In this document: in pieces, positions 16,824 to 20,285 of the stretch
How positions within the stretch are numbered: position 1 is the first letter of the stretch
How the letters are laid out: the number at the start of each line of letters is the position of its first letter
Assembly (NCBI GenBank): GCA_018333955.1
Contig: JAGXSD010000012.1
Location: 1-32,092, forward strand
DNA: 32,092 bases
Direction of reading: 5' to 3'
Origin: Erysipelotrichia bacterium
GTDB taxonomy: Bacteria > Bacillota_I > Bacilli_A > Erysipelotrichales > Erysipelotrichaceae
The notes under the pieces: model-generated
Databases searched by the model: none
The model's input: only the letters and a program-made list of their open reading frames with translations
What the model was told of the DNA's origin: nothing
Program-made: the position numbers and the translations under genes

Positions 16824-16843
16824 AAATGCCGAATTGGCATTTT
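16823..16843. terminator. Bidirectional terminator between galK and the poly-Asp gene
   Basis: Perfect 8-bp stem, AAAATGCC and GGCATTTT with a 5-nt loop. It begins at the last base of galK and touches the stop codon of the convergent gene, with A and T runs on both sides. Confidence 0.85.
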
Positions 16844-17297
16844 AATCATCATCGTCATCATCATCGTCATCATCATCATCATCGTCATCATCATCGTCAT
16901 CATCATCATCGTCATCATCATCGACTCTTTTTTGATATTCAGGGAAAACGTTACGAATACGTCGACGTAATACCACTAATCGATAAGCATCCACTTCAAT
17001 CACATGAACCTGATTATTTATCGAAACACTCACTTCATATACTAAAGGTTGTTGATTCAATCTTAAATTCACATGCTCGATTCGATCAACATCGAATTCT
17101 TGATTAATGAAATCAATCAAAACATCAAAAGTAATGATTTTTGGCTCACGTATTGAATTCACTTCATCCTCATCAAGAAGTTCAACTTGTGTAGGCAATG
17201 TTGCATTAAAGCTCGCAATTAAAACTGTATCAAGCACCATAAAAAGAGATACCATTAGTACTAAAATCAAAACTAAGTTCATAACTCTAGTCTTCAT
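16842..17297 (-). CDS. Membrane-anchored or secreted PepSY-like protein with a 26-Asp tail
   Basis: 151 residues. Residues 1-30 form a signal peptide or membrane anchor (MKTRVMNLVLILVLMVSLFM, then an Ala/Ser stretch). Residues 53-115 look like a single PepSY unit: a helix (FDVLIDFINQEF) followed by strands (PLVYEVSVSI, VHVIEVDAYR). A basic stretch RRRIRNV precedes the tail, which is nothing but 26 Asp from residue 126 to the end. PepSY domains are found in peptidase inhibitors and envelope-signalling proteins. Outside the cell the tail could bind Ca2+ or other cations, or basic peptides (inference). The start overlaps the AraC-type gene end by 11 nt, so the two are co-expressed. Confidence 0.85.
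   Translation of the reverse strand: MKTRVMNLVLILVLMVSLFMVLDTVLIASFNATLPTQVELLDEDEVNSIREPKIITFDVLIDFINQEFDVDRIEHVNLRLNQQPLVYEVSVSINNQVHVIEVDAYRLVVLRRRIRNVFPEYQKRVDDDDDDDDDDDDDDDDDDDDDDDDDD
16845..16922 (-). repeat. Trinucleotide tract encoding 26 aspartates
   Basis: Seventy-eight bases of GAT/GAC on the minus strand: 26 consecutive Asp codons, 21 GAT and 5 GAC, with the GAC codons scattered at spacings of 3 to 5 GAT. The tract ends directly at the stop codon. Slippage would change tail length without shifting the frame. Confidence 0.98.
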
Positions 17298-19038
17298 TGT
17301 GCTTCTCCTTGATTAATGTACGATATGATTCAACTGTCATATTGACACGTTGTTTAAATTGAGTATAGAAATATCGAGGTTCATTATATCCTACTGCCTC
17401 ACTAATCTCCTTCCCACTCATGGAAGTAGTTTCTATTAGCTCCTTTGCTTTATTGATTCGCATGGAGATAAGGTACTCATTCATAGCATTACCGTGAGTT
17501 TCCTTAAATACTTGTCTAATATACCCTAGTGAAAATCCACAAGCATCAGCTAATGCCTCAAAAGTGAAAGAAGAAGAATATCCATGATTTGACAGATAGT
17601 TCATTACTTCATTCATTAATATAGTTTTTGATGTTAAGTATTCACTTTGATAAATGTCTGAGTAATACACAATGTTTTGCTTATCTAAAGTATCCGCATA
17701 TTGTGCAGCAGCTAGTGCACTTCGATAAGATGCTCTTAATCCTTCAATCGATAAACAAAGATCACTAACACCTAATTTGGCACTTTGAATTTTTTCAAGT
17801 TGATTTAAATCTTGATCACGAAATACATAAGCAAATACTCCCTCTGACATTTTAATCCAACCATTGATCACTTTATTTTGTTGCGAAATAAGAGCAACCA
17901 CAACTCTAAGAGGAAACGTTATGAATGAAACATCAATATGAGGTTCAATCAACGATGAAGAAAACAGTGATTTTAATTGAGTGGATTGTTGAGTTAAATT
18001 TAAATCTACGAATGCTGATTCTATGAGTTCAAATTCATCTTTAGCATCATGATAATCTTGCTTTACAAATTGATGAACCATTGATTGAATTGGAGCATAA
18101 AAGCGTTGTGATAAAACATATGAAACGATTAAATTAATCAACACAAACACCATAAACAAGGCAATTATTATTCTATTTGCTGAGATAATGGTTGATTGAA
18201 TGACTTCATATGGAGTTACGTGGAAAAAGATTAGATTATAATTCTTCATTTTCGAATACACCATAAGTGATTGAGAATTATCAAACTGATTTAACACGAA
18301 TTTAGACTTTGCATCAATTTCAAGTGGATTTGAATAACTTAAGGAAGAAGGAAATGATTGGCCTAGCCACTGTTGTGCACTATCGGCGATGACCACATTA
18401 TCTTCATTAATTATTAGAATTTCATAATTTGAATTAGGTGCTGTAAATAATGAAGACAAAACATCATCATTCAAATGAATAATCATCAATCTATCCAGAA
18501 CCCCAACATCATCATAAGATGCAAGTGTTAACGCAAGCACATATGCTTGATTAATTTTTTGATGATGAAATAAGCGTGTTGGGTTTAATTGAAATGAGGA
18601 GAGTGTTTGATTTAAAGAGACTGTAAGTTCATTCTCAGCTAAATTTGTCAATAACCCACTCGCATTATTTGAATACACAACACTTCCTTCTGAGAGATTA
18701 TAATACAATATTGCATCAACCAATGGATCGGCTAAAGCAGTTTGAGAAAGAAATGTTGTTAGGTTACTAACACTAGTGGAATCAGCTATTGTGAATTGTT
18801 GAATAACAGCTTGTTCATTAAATAAAAACACATATTCTGAAATCAAATCATCCAATAATGTTTGTGTTCCTTGTGTTGCCACATTCAATGACTGTGTAGC
18901 ATTTTCGACACTTTGATCCACAAGAAAACGAGCCATAAGATGCGAAGTGAGTACTGATAGAATTCCTGTTAGGATAATCCCACTTAATCCAAAGGCGATG
19001 ATCATGTTTTTCTGTACACGACGTTGACGCTGAATCAT
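17287..19038 (-). CDS. Membrane-anchored AraC-family regulator with extracytoplasmic sensor
   Basis: 583 residues from ATG at 19038. Segment 1 (about 12-34) and segment 2 (about 288-310) bracket a roughly 250-residue extracellular region that resembles Cache/YesN-type sensors. The cytoplasmic part ends in a two-motif AraC helix-turn-helix (478-583: FEALADACGFSLGYIRQVF, then GKEISEAVGYNEPRYFYTQF). There is no receiver or kinase domain, so it senses and binds DNA in one chain. I rejected the longer reading from 19092 because it runs through the terminator palindrome. Neighbours on both sides are secreted PepSY proteins, so their abundance or ligand may be its signal (inference). Confidence 0.9.
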   Translation of the reverse strand: MIQRQRRVQKNMIIAFGLSGIILTGILSVLTSHLMARFLVDQSVENATQSLNVATQGTQTLLDDLISEYVFLFNEQAVIQQFTIADSTSVSNLTTFLSQTALADPLVDAILYYNLSEGSVVYSNNASGLLTNLAENELTVSLNQTLSSFQLNPTRLFHHQKINQAYVLALTLASYDDVGVLDRLMIIHLNDDVLSSLFTAPNSNYEILIINEDNVVIADSAQQWLGQSFPSSLSYSNPLEIDAKSKFVLNQFDNSQSLMVYSKMKNYNLIFFHVTPYEVIQSTIISANRIIIALFMVFVLINLIVSYVLSQRFYAPIQSMVHQFVKQDYHDAKDEFELIESAFVDLNLTQQSTQLKSLFSSSLIEPHIDVSFITFPLRVVVALISQQNKVINGWIKMSEGVFAYVFRDQDLNQLEKIQSAKLGVSDLCLSIEGLRASYRSALAAAQYADTLDKQNIVYYSDIYQSEYLTSKTILMNEVMNYLSNHGYSSSFTFEALADACGFSLGYIRQVFKETHGNAMNEYLISMRINKAKELIETTSMSGKEISEAVGYNEPRYFYTQFKQRVNMTVESYRTLIKEKHNED

Positions 19039-19044
19039 AGTTTC

Positions 19045-19050
19045 ATTATA
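19045..19050 (-). promoter_or_regulatory. -10 box of a possibly leaderless AraC-gene transcript
   Basis: A perfect TATAAT ends 6 nt before the ATG at 19038, placing the predicted transcription start on the start codon itself. No good ribosome site is present and the -35 is poor. Confidence 0.35.
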
Positions 19051-19062
19051 CCTTATATTTTT

Positions 19063-19090
19063 TAAAAGAGGGTGGGCATGCATGCCCACC
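19063..19090 (-). terminator. Palindromic terminator after the four-PepSY gene
   Basis: GGTGGGCATG and CATGCCCACC form a perfect 20-bp palindrome starting 8 nt after the PepSY gene stop. CTCTTTT follows on the minus strand, so the U tract is modest. It probably separates, or partly attenuates, the downstream AraC-type gene. Confidence 0.65.
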
Positions 19091-19097
19091 ATATTGA

Positions 19098-20093
19098 TTA
19101 ATCATCGATTTCAAATTCTAAGATAGTTCCATCTATTCCATCAATTTCAAACTCATACTCAATATCATCAGACTTAAACTCAATATCATAATATGGATGA
19201 CCATCATCATAATCTAATTCTAGTTTTATCAGTACTGGGGCATCTCCAATACGAATACGGGCAATCTCGATAGCACGTTCTTTTGAGATCATAACGATTA
19301 ATTTGACATTTGAACTACTGTCATTTGAATCCATACTAGAGTCATCTTGACTTACTTGTGAACTAGAACCAGAGACTAAATCTATTATATCCCAGTCCTT
19401 GATTTGACCCGTAACAGCATCCACTTCTGCTTTGATTTTAGAATCCACTGATGAAAGAGTGACGTAATATTCTTGATCATCATTATCAAGCTCAACACTA
19501 ATGACAACGTAAGAAGTTCCAGCACGTTCTAATACAATACGTTTTACTTCATCAATAGAAATAAGATTCGTAACTTGACTCACTAAACCTTCTGCTTCCC
19601 ATTTGATAATTTCACCAGTTTTTGCATCAATCTCTACTTCAATCTTAAATCCTTCAGAAAGTAACGTAATCTCATATTCTACATCATCGTCATCATCATC
19701 CAGCTTAATTTCAATGAGAGAAAATCCTTCTCCTGCTCGATTAAGAGCAATGGCTTTCGCCTCTTCAACTGAGATCAGATCTCCATGTCGAATCCATGTA
19801 ACATCCCAATCATCCACAACTCCAGTAATAGCATTAACATCCACTTCGACTGACTTCTCATTATTAACTAAAATAATCTCATACTCACGATCATCATCGT
19901 CTAATTTAACACTTACTAATTCAAACACTTCATCGGTATAATTCATCGCAGCATCAATGGCCTCAGCCTCAGTTATGAACGAAGTGTTAATACTTGTTGT
20001 AAAGATTGGTGAGTTTGCTAGAGCAGGGACTAAAGTTAATCCTACAAATAACCCAGCAAGTATATACATACTATTTCTTATCCATTGTTTCAT
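19098..20093 (-). CDS. Secreted four-repeat PepSY protein with Asp clusters
   Basis: 331 residues from ATG at 20093, chosen for its AAAGGAGG site 6 nt upstream. The signal peptide ends near ALA-N (residue 27). Four PepSY-like repeats lie at about 40-96, 106-164, 178-234 and 268-331, each with the helix-strand-strand-strand order and a D-x-x-TG turn (AITG, AKTG, AVTG, GIDG). In every repeat the first hairpin carries an acidic run (KLDDDDRE, KLDDDDDD, ELDNDDQE, ELDYDDGH). A Ser/Asp-rich linker (241-262) separates repeats 3 and 4. No anchor is seen, so it is exported. The regular acidic loops suggest cation binding (inference). A hairpin follows, then the AraC-type regulator. Confidence 0.88.
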   Translation of the reverse strand: MKQWIRNSMYILAGLFVGLTLVPALANSPIFTTSINTSFITEAEAIDAAMNYTDEVFELVSVKLDDDDREYEIILVNNEKSVEVDVNAITGVVDDWDVTWIRHGDLISVEEAKAIALNRAGEGFSLIEIKLDDDDDDVEYEITLLSEGFKIEVEIDAKTGEIIKWEAEGLVSQVTNLISIDEVKRIVLERAGTSYVVISVELDNDDQEYYVTLSSVDSKIKAEVDAVTGQIKDWDIIDLVSGSSSQVSQDDSSMDSNDSSSNVKLIVMISKERAIEIARIRIGDAPVLIKLELDYDDGHPYYDIEFKSDDIEYEFEIDGIDGTILEFEIDD

Positions 20094-20155
20094 ATTGACC
20101 TCCTTTGGATGAATCAATCATATTTAATTCCAGCTTTTCCAACAATACAAATGGC

Positions 20156-20209
20156 ACATGTATAAGTTTTATTCATATTTTATACATGTTTGAAATTTAA
20201 TGTTTGAAA
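20156..20209. promoter_or_regulatory. Long inverted repeat and direct repeat upstream of the PepSY gene
   Basis: ACATGTATAA (20156-20165) and TTATACATGT (20180-20189) are perfect 10-bp arms 14 bp apart. Overlapping the right arm, ATGTTTGAAA is repeated directly at 20186-20195 and 20200-20209. These lie between divergent genes, upstream of the PepSY start. They are candidate sites for the membrane AraC-type regulator; that link is inference. Confidence 0.5.
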
Positions 20210-20222
20210 AATAAAGTTATAT

Positions 20223-20243
20223 AATTATTGTTTTACAATAATT
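20223..20243. promoter_or_regulatory. Palindromic operator 1 of the membrane protein/XRE/lipoprotein operon
   Basis: Perfect 21-bp palindrome with arms AATTATTGT and ACAATAATT around TTT. It covers the predicted -35 box. Its partner with identical arms is at 20265-20285, 42 bp away centre to centre. Confidence 0.7.
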
Positions 20244-20264: not shown

Positions 20265-20285
20265 AATTATTGTAAAACAATAATT
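20265..20285. promoter_or_regulatory. Palindromic operator 2 of the membrane protein/XRE/lipoprotein operon
   Basis: Perfect 21-bp palindrome with the same arms as operator 1 and AAA in the centre. It runs up to the TTGGAGG ribosome site of the first gene, so a bound protein would block transcription just past the start point. Confidence 0.7.

Follow-up and report, generated by a model that had tools for sequence, protein, structure and literature searches.

The window analysed here (the whole stretch of 32,092 nt, contig 12 of a metagenome-assembled genome from an Erysipelotrichia bacterium) carries three genes on its minus strand, transcribed in the order PepSY4, membrane AraC regulator and poly-Asp protein. 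A preliminary description had claimed this order on one strand and an overlap of 11 nt between the last two genes, and gene reading agrees on both (overlap at 17287–17297). The module comprises the following features.

19098..20093, minus strand: PepSY4, a secreted acidic four-PepSY protein of 331 aa (gene reading and Pfam)
17287..19038, minus strand: one-component membrane AraC regulator of 583 aa (Pfam, predicted structure, start from relatives)
16842..17297, minus strand: membrane-anchored poly-Asp protein of 151 aa (gene reading, Pfam, fold prediction)
20175..20186, minus strand: candidate regulator binding site, TGTATAAAATAT in the window (sequence comparison with relatives)
20117..20122, minus strand: possible −10 box of PepSY4, TATGAT, with TTGTTG 17 nt upstream (read from sequence)
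19071..19090, minus strand: terminator-like hairpin between PepSY4 and the regulator (sequence comparison)
19045..19050, minus strand: TATAAT, −10 box of the regulator gene, 12 nt before the ATG (sequence comparison)

On the opposite strand, an open reading frame at 16826–17107 begins with a His-rich stretch facing the poly-Asp tract; it is probably not a gene, and we rejected it as an antisense mirror of that tract.

Architecture of the three proteins

The start of PepSY4 was assigned to the ATG at 20093, giving 331 aa, in preference to an upstream TTG. The protein has a signal peptide ending in ALA, after which cleavage probably occurs (judged by eye), and a net charge of −53 counted after this peptide. 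Pfam identifies four PepSY domains (PF03413; E = 1.7e-30, 105.6 bits against a cut-off of 24), and the repeats carry Asp clusters (LDDDDR, LDDDDDDV, LDNDDQ and LDYDDG) at a constant position, the first β-hairpin of each, as had been noticed from the sequence. These clusters exaggerate a family trait, because the corresponding hairpin in many PepSY domains of the family already reads roughly DxDDG.

The regulator start was placed at 19038 by comparison with relatives. The 583-aa chain consists of a first transmembrane helix (TM1), a dCache-like ectodomain (about residues 33–282), a second helix (TM2), a linker with weak similarity to GGDEF_2 and a C-terminal AraC/YesN-type helix-turn-helix (HTH; HTH_18, E = 1.1e-14 in Pfam). 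The structure predicted by AlphaFold with eleven aligned sequences has two long, membrane-length helices, a tandem Cache ectodomain (Cache-fold matches at E = 1e-9 to 1e-6, for example the histidine kinase ectodomain 8w7p at 5e-9) and an HTH that matches YesN (3lsg, 33% identity); the linker between TM2 and the HTH is modelled at low confidence. The chain thus has the transmembrane helices, extracellular sensor domain and C-terminal AraC HTH that characterize membrane one-component AraC regulators, as the preliminary description had proposed, and the module contains neither a histidine kinase nor a response regulator.

The poly-Asp protein comprises an N-terminal transmembrane helix, a PepSY-fold domain, a basic stretch and a C-terminal tail of 26 Asp residues encoded by mixed GAT and GAC codons. 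Its PepSY match in Pfam lies under the cut-off (E = 0.015, 16 bits). The predicted structure shows the transmembrane helix, further helices followed by four strands, and the 26 Asp; the fold of its core best matches the PepSY-fold proteins YpmB (2gu3), CD1622 (4exr) and YpeB (5boi) (Foldseek probability 1.00, but E = 0.01–0.11), with vibriolysin also among the matches. Sequence identity to YpmB and YpeB is about 22% over the match, and we know of no poly-Asp tail in either.

C-terminal tails of this kind (26 to about 50 residues) are seldom found in the phylum. Runs of at least 14 Asp codons occur in 6 of the 146 family genomes, always at the locus of the PepSY gene and AraC regulator, and elsewhere in the phylum they occur in 3 further genomes (372 genomes scanned), where they are internal to unrelated proteins. 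We are aware of no role for C-terminal poly-Asp tails of this length. A separate locus (L173, G224:C30, 405–3977) holds a 1191-aa open frame, possibly for a surface protein, with an internal run of about 68 Asp.

Conservation of the PepSY–regulator association

The regulator was found in 9 of the 146 family genomes, all within two Erysipelotrichaceae genera, and in the genomes that carry it PepSY domains map immediately beside it. The preliminary description had suggested a search of relatives for conserved gene order; in that search, a PepSY gene lies directly upstream of the regulator at all nine loci with readable flanks, the window included, whereas none of the 26 control loci, drawn from the next-nearest AraC HTH matches, has PepSY within 1.5 kb (neither the conservation nor the control counts are phylogenetically independent). 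Outside the family, class- and phylum-wide searches with the regulator returned generic AraC HTH matches only, which served as controls.

The three-gene order is kept within the window's genus (G143, G128, G036 and G080), the regulator of G128 being broken by frame changes in this metagenome-assembled genome (MAG). In the second genus (G007, G118 and G063) and at locus L064, the gene directly upstream of the regulator encodes a two-PepSY protein that itself bears the Asp tail, and a third gene is absent. The loci of G138 and L063 are cut by contig ends. Because the genes flanking the module differ between the two genera, the association is more than the inherited synteny of a long block. A similar arrangement recurs at a distance: at a Eubacteriales MAG locus (L062), found by scanning named genomes with the regulator alignment alone and no PepSY or Asp information, the regulator is 22–24% identical and the next two genes downstream encode secreted, Asp-tailed proteins; one, of low complexity, contains a run of 16 Asp, and the other combines an Asp/Ser tail with a PepSY domain that Pfam scores above its cut-off (8.6e-8). 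We conclude that the genes are truly associated and that their association is conserved.

Other PepSY contexts also occur in the family. In G106, a further genome of the window's genus, the AraC regulator is not seen, and genes for an OmpR-type regulator and a histidine kinase adjoin one for a PepSY lipoprotein. Two loci in another Erysipelotrichaceae genus (L020 and L021) encode, next to a response regulator, PepSY proteins whose C-terminal tails are rich in Trp and Asp (for example DWDDQWDDDDDDDDRYDD), and are a two-component version of the acidic-tail theme.

Regulatory DNA and transcription units

A candidate binding site, TGTTGAAAATRT, is found upstream of the PepSY gene in relatives of both genera, about 90 nt before the start codon; its AAAATRT core falls at −87 to −90 in each genus. 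A 12-mer is common to G036/G080 and G063 at the same offset, a length reached in none of 1000 shuffles. The window's own copy deviates, reading TGTATAAAATAT in place of TGTTGAAAATRT. Across ten genomes scanned with zero mismatches, the longer pattern TGTTGAAAATRTRMWG matches only upstream of the PepSY gene; as this pattern was built from the sites it matches, only the absence of other matches is informative. The motif fits the PepSY gene as a target of the regulator, and we infer that it may serve as the regulator's operator; it is the single element on which the putative autoregulation of the module rests. A dyad operator was considered and set aside: in only two relatives does an imperfect palindrome of 32 bp stand out (0/300 shuffles), and it does not do so in the window or in the second genus.

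In the window's genus, a strong hairpin separates PepSY4 from the regulator gene, and both of its arms have changed together in relatives (GGTGGGCATGCATGCCCACC versus GTGTAGGGCAGACGTGCCCTACAC). TATAAT precedes the regulator in all nine sequences compared, 12 to 15 nt from the start codon in the window's genus; with only 12 nt before the ATG in the window, the regulator transcript may be leaderless. The hairpin and the separate, conserved TATAAT argue against a single three-gene operon; PepSY4 can thus be transcribed apart from the regulator gene, and the latter jointly with the poly-Asp gene.

Further upstream, PepSY4 and a gene for a 307-aa membrane protein diverge, and the promoter region that separates them holds two copies of a palindrome, AATTATTGT-NNN-ACAATAATT, at 20223–20243 and 20265–20285 of the window; G036 and G080 have a similar pair. 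The 307-aa membrane gene is followed by a small HTH gene, of which the palindromes may be the operators.

Proposed mechanism and comparison with known systems

Function has been assigned only recently to PepSY proteins encoded beside two-component sensors. Such pairs form a known and widespread module, PepSY genes lying near two-component genes more than 60 times more often than expected (PMC12714742). The gene for the PepSY protein DbfQ of Vibrio cholerae lies upstream of two-component genes; DbfQ binds the histidine kinase DbfS at its sensor domain with a Kd of 30 nM and is inferred to bias it toward phosphatase activity, and the DbfQRS pathway responds to membrane damage and polymyxin B (PMC12714742).

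On balance, we lean towards the view that the locus encodes a conserved module for envelope signalling whose receptor is of the one-component type, with a PepSY feedback loop and PepSY proteins acting on the receptor from outside; the best reading by analogy is that it would be, in logic, the one-component counterpart of the PepSY/two-component module DbfQRS. The dCache ectodomain would face outward, its state setting the activity of the intracellular AraC domain, which would bind roughly 70 nt upstream of the predicted PepSY transcription start and control the PepSY gene, closing the feedback loop. The secreted acidic PepSY protein would act on the receptor from outside, as DbfQ does on DbfS; so would, in the window's genus, the poly-Asp PepSY-fold protein anchored in the membrane. 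Sequence comparison establishes the gene association, the domain make-up, the Asp tails, the shared upstream motif and the separate −10 box; beyond these, we infer that PepSY binds the receptor and what the signal would be. With DbfQRS as precedent, the acidic PepSY proteins probably act on the dCache receptor. The envelope-sensing unit of the preliminary description is plausible: it survives the first refutation test named there, a lack of conserved gene order in relatives, and the motif fits PepSY as a target, but its claim that no system of this kind had been described has to be corrected, as PepSY/two-component modules are known and DbfQ binds its sensor (PMC12714742).

Charge bears on the input as well as on the partnership. 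The ectodomains (net charge −9 to −18) and the PepSY proteins (−48 to −68) are all acidic and would repel each other electrostatically unless bridged. Contact would therefore probably need polyvalent cations or cationic molecules, making cation or cationic-peptide sensitivity the predicted input of the receptor. A more specific version, which we put forward tentatively and regard as rather improbable, is a cation-gated complex in which Asp-tailed or Asp-hairpin PepSY is bridged by divalent cations to the acidic dCache domain of an AraC activator; metal loss or cationic peptides would displace the bridging cations and so switch transcription, following the logic of PhoQ-type sensing with one protein.

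The same repulsion favours the main rival, in which the PepSY proteins are outputs only: dCache would bind a small molecule or ion, and the regulator would turn on acidic surface PepSY proteins whose role at the envelope is to bind cations or cationic peptides and which have no effect on the receptor. Small molecules are the usual ligands of dCache domains, and a protein partner may therefore be dispensable here; the dCache structures among our matches, too, have amino acids, organic acids and the like as ligands. A motif ahead of the PepSY gene would also be expected. However, the poly-Asp gene overlaps the regulator gene and is thus probably co-expressed with the regulator rather than only controlled by it, and PepSY proteins are repeatedly encoded beside sensors, one of which, in the case studied, is bound by its PepSY protein (PMC12714742). 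Overall we regard an outputs-only arrangement as possible but unlikely.

Much further down in probability is a role in proteolysis, in which the PepSY proteins would inhibit or chaperone an extracellular protease and the receptor would report envelope proteolysis. Protease inhibition or chaperoning is the older view of PepSY, which occurs in protease propeptides and in YpeB, and both YpeB and vibriolysin are among the fold matches; yet no protease gene was seen within the module in the relatives read, whose neighbouring genes are only partly annotated. Strongly disfavoured, and to our minds scarcely credible, is the reading of the genes as chance neighbours with an Asp tract produced by codon slippage. 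GAY tracts can expand, and tail length does vary across relatives, from 26 to about 54 codons, but this variation is in frame, the GAT and GAC codons are mixed and no such tracts are found elsewhere in the family, on which grounds we rejected slippage; the pairing, moreover, is conserved in two genera with different flanks and recurs beside the distant regulator of the Eubacteriales MAG.

Several known proteins share single features with the module. YesS/YtdP-type transmembrane AraC regulators of Bacillota combine transmembrane helices, an extracellular sensor and a C-terminal AraC HTH in one chain, a build shared by the present regulator; known examples are linked to carbohydrate uptake genes, unlike the PepSY linkage seen here. 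Among PepSY proteins, UipA is said, in the title of the paper on it, to bind uranium and iron, and LanPepSY reportedly binds metals; to our knowledge, neither UipA nor LanPepSY has a poly-Asp tail or an AraC partner. The present PepSY proteins are putative metal binders. In the literature searched, partly by title, we found no description of PepSY paired with a one-component AraC receptor, or of poly-Asp tails.

Together, these comparisons identify the locus as a variant of PepSY–sensor modules, with a one-component receptor and poly-Asp tails, and not a wholly new kind of system. The finding of this pairing with a receptor of an unrelated type points to a general role for PepSY proteins as extracytoplasmic partners of sensors; with its single receptor, the module makes a simple system for testing that role. 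As in DbfQRS, a secreted PepSY protein is encoded immediately upstream of a membrane sensor, here in a pairing conserved across relatives (9/9), and feedback on a shared promoter, proposed for the present module from sequence, would be a further likeness. In contrast to DbfQRS, a single dCache–AraC chain is the receptor, and both kinase and response regulator are absent. The PepSY proteins here carry poly-Asp tails and acidic repeats, four or two in number, and their gene is set apart from that of the receptor by a hairpin and a separate −10 box.
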